Below are positions 6,685-64,000 of a DNA stretch of 64,000 bases, piece by piece. Every line of letters starts with the position of its first letter. The first letter of the stretch is position 1. A program made the position numbers and the translations under genes. Source of the stretch: an uncultured Rhodospirillales bacterium (GTDB lineage: Bacteria; Pseudomonadota; Alphaproteobacteria; Acetobacterales; Acetobacteraceae); NCBI GenBank assembly GCA_903865895.1, contig CAIPLM010000096.1:1-64000 (forward strand), given 5' to 3'. The notes beneath the pieces were generated by a model that worked only from the letters and a program-made list of their open reading frames with translations, ran no database searches and was not told the origin of the DNA.

Positions 6685-7320
6685 CTAATCCCTCGGCAGA
6701 CGTTTCGGCAGCAGCTTCATCGGCGTTCCCTCGGAGTTCGGGTACCACAGGATCGCCTCCCGCTCCTTCCGCGTCAGGCGCGGCACCTTCTCCGGTCGAG
6801 CCTTCACCGGCCGCTTCGCCCGCTGGCGGCGCGGCAATGCCGGAAGCGCGGGCGTATGGAGGTTCAACGCGTGGCACAGCGGCCGCAACAGGCGCAGCGC
6901 CTGCGGGCTCGCCGCGATCAATCGCGCCACCTCCGGATCATTCAGCAGCAACTCCACATGCCCGCCGAAATTACGCCCGAACGAGCCGATCTCATCGGCC
7001 AGCCAGCCCCGGCGGCGCGGCAGACACAGACGCGGCTTGGCGCGCACGGGCGTCTCTCCGCCCTCCGCCACCTCCACCACCTTGCGCGGCTTGCGCACGC
7101 GCGGCACCGCGCCGGCGAGCAAGCGCGGCCACAGCTTGAGGAACCGATTACGCAGCCGCAGCAGATAGCCCCACAGCAGCAGGCCAGGCATCGGCGGCTT
7201 CGGATGCACATTGAACGCCCGCCCGGTCGCCTCAATCAACCCGGCGATCGCCCATGCGAACCGGAACGCCACCTCATGGGTGCCGGCGGGCAGGCTCGGA
7301 CGGTGAATCGGCGCGATCAT
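6685..7320 (-). CDS. Hypothetical basic protein (211 aa)
   Basis: I do not recognise this 211-residue protein. Its composition is rich in Arg, Lys, Leu and Pro. It has a mildly hydrophobic helix near residues 20-55 and a strongly basic C-terminal third (PRRQRAKRPVKARPEKVPRL). There is no signal peptide or known catalytic motif. It is flanked on both sides by AT-rich spacers (6631-6684 and 7321-7397) unusual for this window, which may mean it was acquired as a unit. A promoter-like pair lies right at its start codon. DNA- or RNA-binding is possible from the charge but is not shown. Confidence 0.65.
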   Translation of the reverse strand: MIAPIHRPSLPAGTHEVAFRFAWAIAGLIEATGRAFNVHPKPPMPGLLLWGYLLRLRNRFLKLWPRLLAGAVPRVRKPRKVVEVAEGGETPVRAKPRLCLPRRRGWLADEIGSFGRNFGGHVELLLNDPEVARLIAASPQALRLLRPLCHALNLHTPALPALPRRQRAKRPVKARPEKVPRLTRKEREAILWYPNSEGTPMKLLPKRLPRD

Positions 7321-7328
7321 GTCGCACT

Positions 7329-7356
7329 TTATAACGGCCTACGTTAGTCTATGCAA
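7329..7356 (-). promoter_or_regulatory. Putative sigma70 promoter of the 211-aa gene
   Basis: Read on the minus strand: TTGCAT (7356-7351), 16-base spacer, TTATAA (7334-7329). Transcription would start near 7322, only about two bases before the ATG at 7320, so the mRNA would be nearly leaderless. The 7321-7397 gap is AT-rich and holds nothing else recognisable. Confidence 0.4.
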
Positions 7357-7397
7357 GGACTATTTGCACGGAAAACGTCTTTTTTCTCCACTCACCC

Positions 7398-9443
7398 TCA
7401 GCGGCACCCTTCCTGCAAGCCCGGCAGCCCCGGCGGCGGGCGGCGGAACTGTGTCGCCTGCTCGAAGGCGTAGGCAATCCGCAGCAGCGTCGCCTCACTC
7501 CAGGCCCGGCCGGTGAAGGTCGCACCAAGCGGAAACGGCGGCGTCTCCCGCCCATTCACCTCGGCGATAAACCCGGCCGGCACCTGCACGCTGGGATAAC
7601 CGGCCTTGGCCGCGATCGCCGCCCCCGCGGTGCCCGGAAACAGCACGGCATCGAGGCGGTTCTCGTCCATATAGGTGTCGAGCCCCTGGCTCCGCGACGC
7701 GCGCAAATCGTTCTGCCGCGCCGCGATATATTCCAGTTCCTTCAGATCGCCCCGCGTATTTTGCGCCGCGAGGAAAATGTCCTGCCCGAAGCGCAGCGCC
7801 TTGTCGCCATGGGTGAAGTTGAAATTCACGATATCGCCCAGGCTCTGGATCGCCGTGCCGCGCGCCCAGTCCTTCAGATAGGCGTTCATGTCGTGCTTCA
7901 GCTCATAAACGAACACGATCGGCAGCCGTGCCACCTTGTTGCGGTCGGGGCTCTCCGGGTTGGTATTGAGGATCGCCATGTCCGTCCCCGGCCCGCCAAT
8001 CCAGCCGGAGGTCGGGATGTTCTCCCGCACGATCACCGCCCCCGCATCCTGCAACGCGGTGATCACCTCCTCCATCACCACGCGGCCCTTGGGCGACAAG
8101 GTGCGCCAATAGACGTCATTGCCTGGGTCATTCGGGTCGGACGGCACGCCGATCCTCGCCCCGCGCAAGCCGTCGCGATCGAGTGACTTCAGGTAATCCA
8201 CCGGCTTCGGCGCCGCCGATGTCGCGGGGTCCAGCGGGTCCGGCCCGATCATCGCGTTCAACAGCAGCGCAGCATCCTGCACCGTGCGGGTCATCGGCCC
8301 GGCCGTGTCCTGGCTCGCGGCGATCGGGATGATGCCGGCGCGGCTGATCAGCCCCACCGTCGGCTTCACCGTCACCAAGCCGGACTGGCTGGCCGGCGAC
8401 AGCAGGGAGCCCGAGGTCTCCGTCCCAATCGCCGCCGCCGCCAGCCCCGCCGCGACAGCAACGCCGGAACCGGCGCTCGATCCACCGGGCGGCACGATCG
8501 GCACCCCCTTGGCATCCACCTCCGGCGCATAGGCATTGCGCACCTGGCCGCCCAGCGAGGAGTAGCCGGAGGGCATGCCAACGGCCAGAATATTGGCGAA
8601 TTCCGTGAGATTGGCCTTTCCAAGCACAATCGCGCCGGCCTTGCGCAGCCGCGCCGCCACTGTCGCATCGCGCTTGGCAAAGGCATCGGCAAGCGCGAGC
8701 GAACCGGCGGTAGTGTGCATCTCATCCGCGGTCGCGATGTTGTCCTTGAGCAGGATCGGAATGCCCTGCAGCGGCGGCCGCTTCCCCTTGGCAAAGCGCG
8801 CAGCATCGCTCGCCGCGGCCAACGACGCCGCCGCCGGGTTGACCTCACGCACCGAATTCAACCCCGGCCCGGCCCGATCATAGGCGGCGATGCGTGCGAG
8901 ATACGCCTTCACCAGCGTGGCGGCGGTGGTCTTGCCGTCCGACAGCGCCTGCTGGAGATCGGCGATCGAGGTATCCTCAACGCAAACGTCAGGCTTAGGG
9001 TTCGGCATCGCCGGTCGCTCCAGTGCGGGGGGTGGTTTGGCCACTGTGACGGCAGCCGGAGGAGGTGGAACCGGCGCCGGCGCCGCGGGAGCGGGCACCG
9101 GTGCCGGCGCGGCTTCGGCCACGGGCGGCGGCGCAGCGGCCGGCGCAGCTGCGGCCGCCAACGGCGCGGCAGGCGCGGCCTCGGTAACCGGCGCGACGGC
9201 AGGCGCTTCAACAGCGGGCGTCGCGGTCGCGTCCTCCATCACCGCAAGCGGCGGTGGTGGCGGCGGCAGCGGGATCACCTTGTAGCGCTGCTTCGGCGCC
9301 TCCGCTGCCTTGGCAGCCTTGGGAGCAGAGGATTTCGGCGCCACCGCGCGGTTCTGCTCGCCCTGCGCCCATGCCGGCGCCGCCCCCAGCAGCAGCGCCG
9401 CCAGCCCGGCGGCCAGCCCGGCGCCTATGCGGCGCTCAGCCAT
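7398..9443 (-). CDS. Secreted amidase (amidase signature family) with Pro/Ala-rich linker
   Basis: A 681-residue exported amidase. A signal peptide spans residues 1-27 (APAWAQ). A low-complexity Pro/Ala/Val linker runs from about 55 to 150. The amidase-signature domain fills 155-681. The Lys-cisSer-Ser triad is K233 (ILLKDNIA), S322 (GGSSAGSG) and S346 (TSGS); the 24-residue spacing between the two Ser matches fatty acid amide hydrolase. It hydrolyses an amide, substrate unknown, in the periplasm or at the envelope. The linker may cross peptidoglycan or tether the domain. The ATG lies inside the end of the upstream ammonia-lyase gene (8-base overlap), so the two are co-translated. Confidence 0.9.
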   Translation of the reverse strand: MAERRIGAGLAAGLAALLLGAAPAWAQGEQNRAVAPKSSAPKAAKAAEAPKQRYKVIPLPPPPPPLAVMEDATATPAVEAPAVAPVTEAAPAAPLAAAAAPAAAPPPVAEAAPAPVPAPAAPAPVPPPPAAVTVAKPPPALERPAMPNPKPDVCVEDTSIADLQQALSDGKTTAATLVKAYLARIAAYDRAGPGLNSVREVNPAAASLAAASDAARFAKGKRPPLQGIPILLKDNIATADEMHTTAGSLALADAFAKRDATVAARLRKAGAIVLGKANLTEFANILAVGMPSGYSSLGGQVRNAYAPEVDAKGVPIVPPGGSSAGSGVAVAAGLAAAAIGTETSGSLLSPASQSGLVTVKPTVGLISRAGIIPIAASQDTAGPMTRTVQDAALLLNAMIGPDPLDPATSAAPKPVDYLKSLDRDGLRGARIGVPSDPNDPGNDVYWRTLSPKGRVVMEEVITALQDAGAVIVRENIPTSGWIGGPGTDMAILNTNPESPDRNKVARLPIVFVYELKHDMNAYLKDWARGTAIQSLGDIVNFNFTHGDKALRFGQDIFLAAQNTRGDLKELEYIAARQNDLRASRSQGLDTYMDENRLDAVLFPGTAGAAIAAKAGYPSVQVPAGFIAEVNGRETPPFPLGATFTGRAWSEATLLRIAYAFEQATQFRRPPPGLPGLQEGCR

Positions 9444-59018: not shown

Positions 59019-60410
59019 GTGCCGCCGGTCATCCTGTGGTTCCGCCGCGATCTGCGGCTGGCCGATCATCCCGCGCTCGCCGCCGCCGTCGGCAGCGGGC
59101 AGCCGGTGCTCGCCGTCTATGTGCATGACGAGACCACGCCGGGCGCCTGGGCGCCGGGCGGAGCGTCACGCTGGTGGCTGCATCACGCGCTCGCCGCCCT
59201 CGCGGCCGATCTCGCGGCGATCGGCGGCCAACTCGTGCTGCGCCGCGGCCCCTATCCGGCGGTGATCCCGGCGCTGACCGCCGAATCCGGCGCGACGTCA
59301 GTGCACGCCAGCCTGCCGGTGGAGCCCTGGGCGCGACAGGCGATGCGTTCGGTGAAGGCGGCGCTGCCCGTGCCGCTGGTGGTGCATCCCGGCCCGCTGC
59401 TGCATCACCCCGATAAGATCCGCACCCAGGCCAGCCGGCATTTCGCCGTGTTCACCCCCTTCGCGCGGGCCTTCCACGCCCAGGGCGAGGTGCCGCCGCC
59501 GCAGCCCGCCCCCGCGCGCATCCAGGCCCACCCCGCCCCCTCCGAGGCGCTGGACGATTGGCGCCTGCTGCCACGCCGGCCGGACTGGGCGGGCGGGCTG
59601 CGCGCAGCCTGGCAGCCCGGTGAAGCCGGCGCCCAGGCCGCCCTCGCCGCCTTCATGGCCGGCCCCGCCCGCCACTACGCAACGCGGCGCGATTATCCCG
59701 GCGAGGTCTCGACCTCCCGCCTCTCCCCCCATCTCGCCTTCGGCAGCATCTCGCCCCGCCAGGCCTGGACCGCCGGTGGCGACAAATTCCGCGCCGAATT
59801 GCTGTGGCGCGAATTCTCCGCCCACCTCCTGTGGCACCACCAGGATCTGCCCGAGACCCCGCTGCGGCCGCAATTCGCCAACATGCCCTGGCGCGACGAC
59901 CCTGCCGCCCTCGCGGCCTGGCAGCGCGGCCGCACCGGCATCCCCATCGTCGATGCCGGCATGCGCGAGCTCTGGACCACCGGCTGGATGCACAACCGGG
60001 TGCGCATGATCGTCGCGAGCTTCCTCATCAAGCATTTGATGATCGACTGGCGGCACGGCGAGGCCTGGTTCTGGGACACGCTGGTGGACGCCGACCTCGC
60101 GGCCAATGCCGCCTCCTGGCAATGGGTCGCCGGCAGCGGCGCCGATGCCGCGCCCTATTTCCGCATCTTCAACCCCGTGCTCCAGGGGCTTAAGTTCGAC
60201 CCCGAGGGCAGCTATGTGCGCGCCCATGTGCCGGAACTGGCGGCGATGCCGAGCCGGCACGTCCACGCCCCCTGGGAGGCCCCGCCGGGCCTGCGGCCGG
60301 CGGGCTACCCAGCGCCCATCGTCGATCTCGCTGCCGGCCGCCAACGCGCTCTCGCGGCCTTTGCCGCCCTTGGCAACGGGGGCTTGGAAGTCCCGCCAGT
60401 TGAAGGCTAG
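59019..60410 (+). CDS. phrB: Deoxyribodipyrimidine photolyase (cryptochrome/photolyase family)
   Basis: A 463-residue DNA repair flavoprotein that splits UV-induced pyrimidine dimers with blue light. The N-terminal antenna domain starts PVILWFRRDLRLADHPAL. The FAD domain has TRLS-like STSRLSPHLAFGSISPR, WREFSAHLLWHHQD, GIPIVDAGMRELWTTGWMHNRVRM and WQWVAGSGADAAPYFRIFNP. GTG 59019 is six bases after the LuxR-type regulator, which may control it. Full length. Confidence 0.95.
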   Translation: MPPVILWFRRDLRLADHPALAAAVGSGQPVLAVYVHDETTPGAWAPGGASRWWLHHALAALAADLAAIGGQLVLRRGPYPAVIPALTAESGATSVHASLPVEPWARQAMRSVKAALPVPLVVHPGPLLHHPDKIRTQASRHFAVFTPFARAFHAQGEVPPPQPAPARIQAHPAPSEALDDWRLLPRRPDWAGGLRAAWQPGEAGAQAALAAFMAGPARHYATRRDYPGEVSTSRLSPHLAFGSISPRQAWTAGGDKFRAELLWREFSAHLLWHHQDLPETPLRPQFANMPWRDDPAALAAWQRGRTGIPIVDAGMRELWTTGWMHNRVRMIVASFLIKHLMIDWRHGEAWFWDTLVDADLAANAASWQWVAGSGADAAPYFRIFNPVLQGLKFDPEGSYVRAHVPELAAMPSRHVHAPWEAPPGLRPAGYPAPIVDLAAGRQRALAAFAALGNGGLEVPPVEG

Positions 60411-60460
60411 ATTTCGCTTCAAGGCGTCATCGAGACGTAACAAGAGGGAAGGCTGGAGCG

Positions 60461-61720
60461 GTGCCTGATGCATTGACTGGCGGGACCGGGCAGGAAACGG
60501 TCATTTTATCCGAAGGGGCCAAACCGAGGGATCGGCGGCTGCGCTTTCTCTTGCAGATGGCAAGCAAGCTGAGGGTCGGCACGCTCGAAATCGTGCTGCC
60601 CGACGGTTCGCGCCACCGCGCCATCGCCACCGAGGCGCCGCGCGCGGAAATCACCATCCACCACCCGAGCGCGGTCACCCGGCTTGCCACCGGTGGCAGC
60701 CTTGGCCTCGCCGAGGCCTATCTCGACGGGTTGTGGTCCAGCCCCGACATCCGCGCCATCATGGCGCTCGCCTCTATCAACGAGCAGGAATGGGAGGCGG
60801 ACCTCAACGGAAGGCGCCTCAAGCGGCTGATCGCCAAGTTCCTGCATATGCTTCGGCCCAATACGCGCAGCGGCTCCAAGCGCAACATCGTGGACCACTA
60901 CGATCTCGGGAATGAGTTCTATTCCGCCTGGCTCGACCCCACGATGTCCTACTCCTCCGCCTATTTCGGTGGCGATCTCGGCGTGTCGCTGGAGAAGGCG
61001 CAGCTCGAGAAGGTCCATCATCTCTGCCAGATGCTGCAGCTGACGCCGGGGATGCGGGTGTTGGAAATCGGCTGCGGCTGGGGCGGATTCGCCGAGGTGG
61101 CGGCGCGCGACTATGGCTGCAGCGTCGTCGGCATCACCCTGTCTCCGTCGCAGCTCGAATTCGCTCAGGCGCGCATGAAGGCCGCCGGGCTGGAGAAGCG
61201 CGTCGAGTTGCGGCTGCAAGACTACCGGGACGTGGCCGGGACGTTTGACCGCATCGCCTCGGTCGAAATGTTCGAGGCGGTCGGCGAGAAATTCTGGCCG
61301 ATCTATTTCGCCACCATCCGCGAACGGCTGCGGCCCAATGGCGTCGCCGGCCTACAGATCATCACCATCGCCGACCGGCTATTCGAGAACTACCGGAAAT
61401 CGGCCGATTTCATCCAGCGCCACGTCTTCCCCGGCGGCATGCTGCCCTCCAAGCGCCGCCTGATGCAGTCCATCCTGCGCGCCGGGCTGGCCTGGGGCGA
61501 GGAGCACTGGTTCGGGCTCGACTATGCCGAGACGCTGTCGCGCTGGCAGGATAGTTTCCAAGCCGCCTGGCCGCGCATCAAAGCCGACAGCGCGGTGCGC
61601 CGGCGGCCCTGCGACGAGCGCTTCAAGCGGCTGTGGGAATACTACCTCGCCTATTGCGAAACCGGCTTCCGCGCCGGCTGGACCGACGTCGGGCAAATCC
61701 TGATCGCCCGCAACCAGTAG
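60461..61720 (+). CDS. cfa: Cyclopropane-fatty-acyl-phospholipid synthase
   Basis: A 419-residue SAM-dependent methyltransferase that adds a methylene bridge to unsaturated membrane fatty acids. NIVDHYDLGNEFYSAWLDPTMSYSSAYF, the SAM motif VLEIGCGWGGFAEVAA and IASVEMFEAVGEKFW are typical, with the C-terminal CETGFRAGWTDVGQI. The start is GTG 60461. It follows phrB by 50 bases; both are stress-linked functions. Confidence 0.94.
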   Translation: MPDALTGGTGQETVILSEGAKPRDRRLRFLLQMASKLRVGTLEIVLPDGSRHRAIATEAPRAEITIHHPSAVTRLATGGSLGLAEAYLDGLWSSPDIRAIMALASINEQEWEADLNGRRLKRLIAKFLHMLRPNTRSGSKRNIVDHYDLGNEFYSAWLDPTMSYSSAYFGGDLGVSLEKAQLEKVHHLCQMLQLTPGMRVLEIGCGWGGFAEVAARDYGCSVVGITLSPSQLEFAQARMKAAGLEKRVELRLQDYRDVAGTFDRIASVEMFEAVGEKFWPIYFATIRERLRPNGVAGLQIITIADRLFENYRKSADFIQRHVFPGGMLPSKRRLMQSILRAGLAWGEEHWFGLDYAETLSRWQDSFQAAWPRIKADSAVRRRPCDERFKRLWEYYLAYCETGFRAGWTDVGQILIARNQ

Positions 61721-61726
61721 CCGGGC

Positions 61727-62806
61727 TCAGACGAAGGGCGGGCTGAGCCCCTCGGCCGCCAACGTGGCCGCGACGGCGGGGCGGACGAGCATGCGGGTGG
61801 CATGGGCGCCGATGGCGGGCAGGCTCGCCGGGCGGCGGGCCATGCGAGAGCCCCACATCACCAGCATCAGCAGGAAGAAATCGGCGGCGGAGACGGTGTC
61901 GCCGAGCAGATAGGGGCCAGCGCCCAATTCGGCCTCGATGAAATCAAACATCCCGTCGAGCCGGCGGAAGGCGGTGGCGCGCACGTCCTCCACCGCGTCG
62001 GGGTTGGTTACGTGGCGGTGCGGGTAGGCACGCTTGAGGTGCTCGGGCTGGAGCGTATTGGTGAGGTACATCATCCACTTGTAGAAATGCGCCCGTTCCG
62101 CGCTGCCCACGGGCGGGGCGAGACCGCATTCGGGATGGCGGTCAACCAGATGCAGCGCGATCGCCGCCGTCTCGGTGAGCACGAGATCGCCATCGACCAG
62201 CACCGGGATCTGGCCGAGCGGGTTGAGGCGGAGATATTCAGCGCTGTTATGCGCGTCGGACTTGCGATCGACCAGGCGCAATTCGAACGGCACGCCGAGT
62301 TCCCGCAGCAGCATGTGAATGAAAGTGCTGGCGTTATCCGGGTAGTAGTAGAGCGCGTACATGCCTGCCTCCTCGCCGATGGCCGTCCGGTAGGCGGCCC
62401 AGACGGCGCCGGGATCGAGCGCCGCCACCGAAGCGGCCTGCGCCGCGGTTTCCACCGCCTCTCCATTGTAGCAGCGGCGCGTCCAGCCGACGGGATCGGC
62501 ATGCCCGGCCATGCGAGCGAGGGCGGCGATGAAGGTGCCGGTGCGGCCGAAGCCGGCGCGGCAGCCGACATGCACGACGGCATCCCCCTGACGCCACGCC
62601 GCCAGCAGGGCCGCGAGCGCGCCGACCAGGGCTTCCTGGGTCGGCGCGGTGTAGTCCTCAACCGGCAGGTCGATGGTGGCCGAAGGGCGCAGCCGGGCGC
62701 CGGGATCGAGGCAGACGCCGATGCCCAGGCCATCCCAGGAATCGAAAGGACCGCCGGTGATCCGGCGGTCCTCCCCAAGCAGCCGCAGCGTGACGGCACC
62801 GTTCAT
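61727..62806 (-). CDS. Fusion of a dual-specificity-type phosphatase domain and glutathione S-transferase
   Basis: A 359-residue two-domain protein. Residues 1-148 carry the Cys-x5-Arg phosphatase loop VGCRAGFGRTG (C82, R88) of the PTP/dual-specificity fold, with Gly instead of the usual His before Cys. Residues 149-359 are a complete GST: MYALYYYPDNASTFIHMLLRELGVPFELRLVD thioredoxin-like start, GQIPVLVDGDLVLTETAAIALHL with the conserved cis-Pro and ES/T-type glutathione site, and an all-helical C-terminus. M149 (62362) is preceded by AGGAGG five bases upstream, so the GST may also be made alone. Convergent with cfa (6-base gap). Confidence 0.87.
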   Translation of the reverse strand: MNGAVTLRLLGEDRRITGGPFDSWDGLGIGVCLDPGARLRPSATIDLPVEDYTAPTQEALVGALAALLAAWRQGDAVVHVGCRAGFGRTGTFIAALARMAGHADPVGWTRRCYNGEAVETAAQAASVAALDPGAVWAAYRTAIGEEAGMYALYYYPDNASTFIHMLLRELGVPFELRLVDRKSDAHNSAEYLRLNPLGQIPVLVDGDLVLTETAAIALHLVDRHPECGLAPPVGSAERAHFYKWMMYLTNTLQPEHLKRAYPHRHVTNPDAVEDVRATAFRRLDGMFDFIEAELGAGPYLLGDTVSAADFFLLMLVMWGSRMARRPASLPAIGAHATRMLVRPAVAATLAAEGLSPPFV

Positions 62807-62814
62807 CTGGTCTC

Positions 62815-63558
62815 TCAGGCGTCGGCATCCACCTTCATCTCACCGAGATAGGCCTCGCGGATGAGCGGGTTGGCCTCCAGCTCGCGGGCATCGCCCTGTA
62901 GCACCACAACGCCGGTTTGCAGCACGTAGCCGCGATGGGCGATGGAGAGCGCCATCGAGGCGTTCTGTTCCACCATGAAAATGGTGGTGCCCTGCTTGTT
63001 GATCTCCTTGATGATGTCGAACACCATCTCGACGTAGAGCGGCGAGAGGCCCATCGAGGGCTCGTCCATGCACAGCAGGCGCGGTCGGGCCATCAGCGCG
63101 CGGCCGATCGCCACCATCTGCTGCTCGCCGCCCGAGAGGGTGCCGGAGATCTGGTTGCGGCGCTCTTTCACGCGGGGGAACAGCGAATAGACGCGCTCGA
63201 GGTCCTGGTCGTATTCCGGGCCCTTCTTGCGGGTATAGGCGCCCATTTCCAGGTTCTCGTAGACCGTCATGCGCGGGAACAGGCGCCGCGCCTCAAGCAC
63301 CGGTGCGATGCCGCGCATCACGCGCTGCGCCGGGGTGAGGCCGAGGATGTTCTCGCCATCGAAGGTCAACGTGCCGGTCGCCGGCTTCACCACGCCCATG
63401 ATGGTCTTCATGGTGGTGGACTTGCCGCAGGCATTGCCGCCGAGCAGCGCGATGATCTCGCCCTTCTGGATGGTGTAGCTGACATCCTTCAGGGCATGCA
63501 GGTCACCGTAGTAGGTGTTGATGCCGCGGAAATCGAGCAGCACTTCGGACTCAGCCAT
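62815..63558 (-). CDS. livF: Branched-chain amino acid ABC transporter ATP-binding protein LivF
   Basis: A 247-residue ATPase. Walker A reads GGNACGKST, the signature LSGGEQQMVAIGRAL, Walker B LLCMDEPSMGLSPLYV, and the C-terminus YVLQTGVVVLQGDARELEANPLIREAYLG is typical of LivF. The ATG at 63558 lies inside the stop region of the upstream livG-like gene (8-base overlap). It energises a LIV/HAAT-type importer whose other genes lie beyond the window edge. The phosphatase-GST gene follows in eight bases. Confidence 0.95.
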   Translation of the reverse strand: MAESEVLLDFRGINTYYGDLHALKDVSYTIQKGEIIALLGGNACGKSTTMKTIMGVVKPATGTLTFDGENILGLTPAQRVMRGIAPVLEARRLFPRMTVYENLEMGAYTRKKGPEYDQDLERVYSLFPRVKERRNQISGTLSGGEQQMVAIGRALMARPRLLCMDEPSMGLSPLYVEMVFDIIKEINKQGTTIFMVEQNASMALSIAHRGYVLQTGVVVLQGDARELEANPLIREAYLGEMKVDADA

Positions 63559-64000
63559 TGGCGTTCTCCCCAGCTGAAACGGCCTGGGCCGCGGCGTCCT
63601 GCGCTTCGATCTTGGCGCGATGCGCACGGCCGAGATAGGCGGTCAGCACCTCCTCGTTGCGCTGCACCTCGTCGGCCGTGCCCTCGGCGATGACATCGCC
63701 ATGGTCCAGCACGGTCACGCGGTTCGCCAGTCGGGTCACGACGTCGAGCTTGTGTTCAATGATCAGGATGGTGAGGCCCATGGCGTTCAGCTCACCGATC
63801 TGCTCGGCGAGTTCCAGGGTCTCGTTGGGGTTCATACCCGCGGTCGGCTCGTCGAGCAGCAGGATGCGCGGGCGGGAGGCGAGCGCACGGCTGATTTCAA
63901 CGCGGCGGCGGTTGGCGTAGGACAGCCCGGCCACCGCATGGTTGGCGCGCGGGGTGAGCCGGTTGCCAAACAGGCCGATGATGTCGAGCGCCTTTCGCAG
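63551..64000 (-). CDS. livG: Branched-chain amino acid ABC transporter ATP-binding protein LivG (partial, 5' end outside window)
   Basis: The C-terminal 149 residues of a LivG-type ATPase; the frame stays open to the window edge at 64000. Visible are the signature region AGLSYANRRRVEISRALAS, Walker B ILLLDEPTAGMNPNET, the switch region LTILIIEHKLDVV and the LivG tail GDVIAEGTADEVQRNEEVLTAYLGR. The Walker A half is missing because it lies outside. A frame starting at 63934 would be a false internal start. Confidence 0.92.
   Translation of the reverse strand: MRKALDIIGLFGNRLTPRANHAVAGLSYANRRRVEISRALASRPRILLLDEPTAGMNPNETLELAEQIGELNAMGLTILIIEHKLDVVTRLANRVTVLDHGDVIAEGTADEVQRNEEVLTAYLGRAHRAKIEAQDAAAQAVSAGENANG

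Follow-up and report, generated by a model that had tools for sequence, protein, structure and literature searches.

Small atypical dual-specificity phosphatases, of which Tk-PTP, SsoPTP and DUSP23 (VHZ) are the examples nearest to the protein described here, carry a Cys-x5-Arg loop, a DF..P acid loop and an AVET..Q segment. An excerpt of the report on Tk-PTP (PMC5965843) describes an enzyme that uses two acids, Asp 63 and Glu 132, and whose G95A variant has its P-loop in the active form. In beta-class glutathione S-transferases (GSTs), Cys 10 is catalytic, according to a title cited within PMC4138524.

The stretch of DNA analysed here, 64,000 nucleotides in length and called the window below, contains a gene in which a phosphatase resembling the first group is joined in one frame to a GST. 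Its phosphatase half shares the fold, the Cx5R loop, the acid loop and the AVET..Q segment with Tk-PTP, SsoPTP and DUSP23, at 16–27% identity, and like Tk-PTP it has both acid positions; unlike the three enzymes, it has Gly instead of His before the Cys, has a GST partner and falls below the cut-off of the DSPc profile. Its GST half resembles the beta-class enzymes in having the whole GST fold and most of the glutathione-site motifs, but it differs from them in having Ala at the Cys 10 position, in missing the GstA equivalog and in bearing an N-terminal phosphatase. The original prediction had held that this pairing was undescribed, and term searches of open papers likewise returned no natural phosphatase-GST fusion, although GST tags add noise to searches of this kind. 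Gene fusion between operon neighbours is a familiar type of event, and we consider it likely, taking the inferred fusion and functional steps together, that the locus encodes a bifunctional protein that arose by the joining of two neighbouring operon genes.

A single frame with two domains

The fused gene and its surroundings contain the following features.

61727..62806, minus strand: phosphatase-GST fused gene, 359 amino acids, ATG start, stop codon 61729-61727
62363..62806, minus strand: Cys-x5-Arg phosphatase domain and short junction, residues 1-148; PTP-SAK; DUSP23/Tk-PTP-like fold
62654..62656, minus strand: codon of D51, candidate general acid, invariant in 36/36 phosphatases and aligned with Tk-PTP Asp63
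62543..62563, minus strand: P-loop C82-R-A-G-F-G-R88, with Gly81 immediately before it; key residues invariant in 36/36
62450..62452, minus strand: codon of E119, candidate second general acid, invariant in 36/36 and aligned with Tk-PTP Glu132
62368..62373, minus strand: AGGAGG, Shine-Dalgarno-like, within the coding sequence; probably once the ribosome-binding site of gst
62360..62362, minus strand: internal ATG (M149), where free GST orthologues begin
61730..62362, minus strand: residues 149-359, GST fold with both N and C domains, resembling the beta class except for Ala in place of Cys10
62815..63627 (start uncertain), minus strand: livF-type ATPase gene, the next gene upstream, ending with its stop 8 bases ahead of the fusion ATG
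63551..64000, minus strand: 3' part of livMG, permease and ATPase in one frame, clipped at the window end

The main architectural claims of the original prediction hold. One open reading frame of 359 codons joins the Cys-x5-Arg phosphatase to the GST, on the minus strand, which the prediction had not given; C82 and R88 form the loop, with a Gly (G81) before the Cys as had been stated; and the GST methionine said to lie at 62362, five bases downstream of an AGGAGG, is residue 149, with a 5-nt spacer between the motif (62373-62368) and its codon (62362-62360).

Profile searches recovered both domains. Only two Pfam families were passed by residues 1-148 at the curated cut-offs, namely PTP-SAK (PF22784; 40.7 bits, cut-off 27), whose match spans just residues 44-112, and Tc-R-P (PF22785; 31.5 bits, cut-off 27), a match that might also fit a polymorphic-toxin phosphatase. 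The same residues failed DSPc (PF00782), scoring 16.3 bits against a curated cut-off of 33.5. Residues 149-359 passed GST_N (57.4 bits, cut-off 20.9) and GST_C_2 (33.4 bits, cut-off 24.9), and GST_N_2, GST_N_3 and GST_C were over their cut-offs as well. The domain check proposed with the prediction thus supports a phosphatase and a GST, the former through PTP-SAK and not through DSPc.

The full-length model has a pLDDT of 95.4 and a pTM of 0.92, the alignment behind it holding five fused rows among 27. Because of the high pTM, a fixed mutual orientation of the two domains is predicted, and the model suggests that phosphatase and GST are held in a set arrangement. All of the 50 top-ranking PDB matches to this model are too short to accommodate both domains.

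The phosphatase belongs to a subfamily that appears to be confined to the window's family. The order-level search recovered it from 55 of 299 genomes, all 55 of that family, a sample that says little about other families because the non-matching genomes listed also all belong to the window's family. The matches at class level (20 of 385) and phylum level (10 of 398) were distant only, apart from the window's own genome. The 36 phosphatases compared throughout are those with loci, 30 from the 55 matched genomes and six from other searches; alignment A1 holds 22 of them. Around 19 distant class-level phosphatase loci, frames of at least 80 amino acids within a flank of up to ~1.5 kb gave no GST match (hmmsearch, E 1e-4), and a plasmid collection contained neither a record covering 80% of the fusion nor a match to its phosphatase half.

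Origin of the fusion and the internal start

The two-domain frame runs without a stop in all five genomes of the window's genus. Three other genera have the phosphatase and, downstream of it, gst as separate genes, which overlap by 8 nt, counted from the gst ATG, in G067 and by 4 nt (ATGA) in G055 and G103. The phosphatase of G067 ends in Asn-Asn-Glu-Glu-Arg-Asp-Ala followed by a stop, its GAG GAG doubling as the ribosome-binding site of gst, and the junction in the window reads Gly-Glu-Glu-Ala-Gly-Met-Tyr, likewise with GAG GAG ahead of the gst ATG. Judged from this one outgroup and this short motif, a net two-base change between the GAG GAG site and the ATG would suffice to join the frames. 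We infer a single fusion in the common ancestor of the genus, brought about by one small indel where the genes overlap. All five fusion junctions align without gaps, which favours a single event.

A tree of six genes (LivK, LivH, LivMG, LivF, phosphatase and GST) from 14 genomes, of which G150 fills 23% of the columns and five lack GST, unites the five fusions as a clade (100/100) and makes the unfused G067 their closest neighbour (96/98). Inside the clade, the window's genome (G000) pairs with G150 (100/99), and G151 groups with G020 and G111 (99/99). A three-gene tree (phosphatase, GST and LivF) instead puts G151 with G000 and G150 at weak support (75/80), a topology that would require two losses of the internal start, or its regain. 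Both trees were rooted at the midpoint for drawing only.

The same two genes are also found in other arrangements. In G322 (locus L082, 6624-7681) the order is reversed, gst preceding the phosphatase with a 4-base overlap, so gst and phosphatase have seemingly been brought together in more than one way. GST orthologues with no phosphatase within 1.5 kb occur in G114, G084, G148, G134, G058 and G013.

Four free GSTs (L014, L015, L017 and L021) begin MYTLYYYP, and the corresponding Met-Tyr-Ala-Leu-Tyr-Tyr-Tyr-Pro lies inside the fusion of the window. Since the internal ATG is located where the free orthologues begin, it is most simply the old gst start. The AGGAGG-ATG signal itself is rare, not unique, and its position is the stronger argument: in a chance estimate restricted to the window and its 54 crudely called genes, AGGAGG stands 4-10 nt ahead of 2 of 384 in-frame internal ATGs, M149 being one of them. 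The sister species of the window's (G150, 85% protein identity) keeps both the ATG and the AGGAGG. The other three fused species (G151, G020 and G111) have neither an ATG nor a Shine-Dalgarno-like motif at the junction. G151 does have in-frame GTG codons, including one a codon downstream, again with no such motif, and G020 and G111 have no in-frame ATG, GTG or TTG from about 21 codons before the GST to 16 codons into it. With the first start codon of the latter two coming only at GST residue 17, at least two species must get by on the fused form, and the lack of ATG and motif in three makes a free GST optional and not a feature of the fusion.

The original prediction had proposed that the locus may make both the fusion and a free GST. 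Of this, a credible internal start survives in two of the five fused species; a dual product as a conserved property is rejected, because start and Shine-Dalgarno motif are not conserved across the fusions. Going by sequence, the window species may plausibly make a free GST; both there and in its sister the old start, AGGAGG-N5-ATG, would probably still give some of it.

A more demanding reading makes the dual start the point of the locus, with fusion and free GST both functional and internal initiation under selection. It draws on the coincidence of AGGAGG-N5-ATG with the start of free GSTs, on its retention in G150, on its rarity before internal ATGs and on the upstream sequence of the fusion's own ATG, which by eye is weak and GAGA-like with no good Shine-Dalgarno. 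We regard it as possible, though the evidence leans the other way. The signal is absent from the junction in three of five fused species, and it consists of two GAG codons, so that a neutral relic explains it as well. The DNA of G000 and G150 is identical at 36 of 45 positions over residues 136-150, within the range of other 15-codon blocks, and this local comparison gave no sign of selection on the internal site. Nor is a strong Shine-Dalgarno needed for starting here, since AGGAGG precedes only 2 of the window's 54 crude gene starts.

Operon context and possible substrates

In the window species the operon runs livK, livH, livMG (one frame), livF and the fusion. Translation would begin at the phosphatase ATG, probably in coupling with livF, and continue through the fused gene. 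LivF is the best NCBIfam match of the upstream gene, below its cut-off (253.3 versus 441 bits), and because the liv-type models, though the best matches, all stay below their curated cut-offs, we name no substrate for the transporter.

A second fusion of neighbours is seen in the same operon, where livM and livG form one frame of 691 amino acids (L069, 5552-7627). Single-frame livMG matches of at least 650 query residues, counted irrespective of stops, were found in 13 of 14 genomes, the contig of G150 ending before livMG. Both cases join adjacent genes of one operon in one frame. Apart from the different domain pair, the phosphatase-GST fusion is unlike livM-livG in that its intermediates are all visible: overlapping separate genes, a fusion with the old start and a fusion that lacks it. 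These allow one to test what is gained from joining operon neighbours, and whether a leftover internal start works.

Among the 36 phosphatase loci, livF lies beside the phosphatase gene in 14 and pssA and/or psd within ~1.5 kb of a stand-alone phosphatase in 15; one further locus has a c-type cytochrome gene alone, and six have no match to any probe. Nine of the 14 liv-type loci have a GST, fused in five and as a separate neighbour in four, and none of the 14, fusions included, gave a match to pssA or psd. The subfamily thus occurs in two diverging contexts, a liv-type transporter in the fused branch versus psd-pssA phospholipid synthesis for many stand-alone members. The gene calls behind these neighbourhoods, and behind the chance estimate above, follow a simple composition rule with leftmost starts, which misses some genes, the fusion in L070 among them, and produces some false frames.

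The second context comprises L084-L086, L088 and 11 more loci, in which psd (phosphatidylserine decarboxylase) and pssA (phosphatidylserine synthase) were named by reading the sequences. In several of these genomes the phosphatase directly follows pssA, and in others a c-type cytochrome gene lies between. At L083 (G352, ~6764-8550) the phosphatase directly follows a livK-type gene, with no livG or livF match in the 15-kb stretch, as if livHMGF had been deleted.

The neighbourhoods suggest a phospholipid-linked role for the psd/pssA branch. Extended to the subfamily as a whole, the phosphatase would act on a phospholipid or another small-molecule phosphate and not on proteins, and the liv-operon copies may derive from an older phospholipid-synthesis operon. 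We find this extension doubtful. The 15 loci in which the phosphatase lies near pssA or psd, often as the next gene, speak for it, but the 14 liv-type loci show no such association. The structural matches include PTPMT1 with PI(5)P, at Z 13.4 but only in 40th place. PgpA is retained in the window's genome, so the usual role of phosphatidylglycerophosphate phosphatase is filled, and the idea that the phosphatase replaces PgpA in that role is weakened. A literature search on the psd-pssA neighbourhood found no paper, and one on PTPMT1 in bacteria gave nothing decisive.

The pairing of the two domains in the fused branch suggests a shared pathway for this phosphatase subfamily and a glutathione-binding protein, which provides a lead for both proteins. 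The fusion guarantees that the two domains are present in equal amounts and in proximity.

Catalytic residues and conservation of the fusion

The model of the phosphatase domain (AF2; pLDDT 95.8, pTM 0.92) has the PTP/DSP fold. Its nearest solved structure is Tk-PTP (VIA-align Z 15.8, rmsd 2.1, 124 residues aligned), with which we count SsoPTP (Z 15.6) and DUSP23 (Z 15.2) as tied. Nineteen residues are invariant in all 36 phosphatases: G19, F21, C32, L33, A43, D51, P55, G81, C82, A84, G85, G87, R88, G90, G101, R110, Y113, E119 and Q123. They include the marks of the Cx5R superfamily, namely the Cys, the Arg and the P-loop glycines G85 and G87. D51 aligns with the acid loop of both 25xa and 5z5b, as expected of an upstream-loop Asp acting as general acid. 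In the alignment to 5z5b, with residues counted by hand, D51, E119 and A84 fall at the Tk-PTP positions Asp 63, Glu 132 and G95A.

The residue before the catalytic Cys is the main departure from the canonical HCx5R signature. It is Gly and never His in the 36 subfamily members, whereas His is found in all 25 distant relatives from other families (19 class-level loci, and six extra phylum-level loci read at their P-loops only). Being invariant, Gly81 is a trait of the subfamily. The original prediction took this residue as a possible sign of altered or lost phosphatase activity, which finds no support, as the Gly is invariant together with D51, C82, R88, E119 and Q123. Loss of activity is unlikely when the Gly is invariant and the other catalytic residues are kept, but since the distant relatives carry the canonical His, altered kinetics are possible and the activity may be weaker than assumed. 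From its sequence the domain is probably active, and it would work as a Cys-phosphatase of the DUSP23/Tk-PTP type, with C82 as the nucleophile, R88 binding the phosphate and D51 and E119 serving as acids.

Alternatively, the domain could be a pseudophosphatase, which has kept the fold to bind phosphate or to serve as a scaffold and has lost most of its catalysis with the change of His to Gly. The uniform split between Gly in the subfamily and His in the distant relatives fits this idea, but we think it improbable: invariance of the active-site Cys, Arg, Asp, Glu and Gln is unexpected if catalysis has been lost, and Ala84 occupies the position at which G95A keeps Tk-PTP in the active P-loop form, according to the excerpt of PMC5965843.

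The GST half finds its best relatives, by sequence and by structure, among bacterial beta-class GSTs. It matches 3uap at 107.8 bits, and 4g9h, 2dsa (BphK) and 1a0f (E. coli GST) are also among these relatives; by fold it matches 4gf0 (TMt 0.92). We take these five structures to be of the beta class, and 6m1t is assigned to it by its entry title. The original prediction spoke of a full GST, which is right for the fold, as this is complete, but the position of the beta-class catalytic Cys 10 is Ala in the alignments to 3uap, 4g9h and 2dsa. NAS occupies this place in 17 of 19 GST rows of alignment A2; the row of L022 reads RAS and that of L025 ACS, as in beta-class enzymes. The E. coli GstA equivalog (NF007831) was missed, at 102.5 bits against a cut-off of 198. 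By eye, the glutathione-site motifs around IPxL and E-T/S-A-A are mostly retained. Judged on these motifs and the fold, the half is a GST-fold protein that probably binds glutathione, though not strictly a beta-class enzyme, and it would bind its ligand without the Cys 10 chemistry.

A GST half with no beta-class Cys of its own fits a helper role as well as it fits a different transferase chemistry. One such role is a self-reducing phosphatase, in which glutathione held by the GST beside the phosphatase, in keeping with the predicted fixed orientation of the domains, resolves an oxidised or glutathionylated Cys82 and the activity follows the glutathione state of the cell. We consider this a long shot. 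Should glutathione indeed act on the phosphatase through the GST half, a bacterial phosphatase would carry its redox switch within one polypeptide. That glutathione status is tied to a phosphorylated substrate, as the original prediction raised, is speculation.

Both halves of the fusion evolve under constraint. For the ten species pairs, NG86 dN/dS lies at 0.13-0.41 in the phosphatase half and 0.11-0.25 in the GST half, ratios that are rough because several pairwise dS values exceed 1, and such low values indicate that both halves are held by purifying selection. Each of the five genomes of the genus has a single match at E 1e-15, and thus no second copy of the fusion at that threshold; loosening the threshold to E 1e-3 brings up other matches in the window's genome, none of them more than 30% identical. 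A sequencing or assembly error masking a stop between two genes, a reading for which the unfused neighbours in other genera could be cited, is refuted by the stop-free frames and gap-free junctions of all five genomes, the other four fusions being 63-86% identical to the window protein. Two of the five fused genomes also appear as MAG records, from Lake Pavin (L007) and Alinen (L008).

On the other side of the fused gene, at 59019-61720 of the window and on the opposite strand, a photolyase-like gene (named by reading its sequence) and a cyclopropane-fatty-acid-synthase-like gene (assigned below the cut-off) converge on the fusion. No match to this pair was found beside the fusion in three of the fused species, and G150 has the neighbourhood in common with the window.
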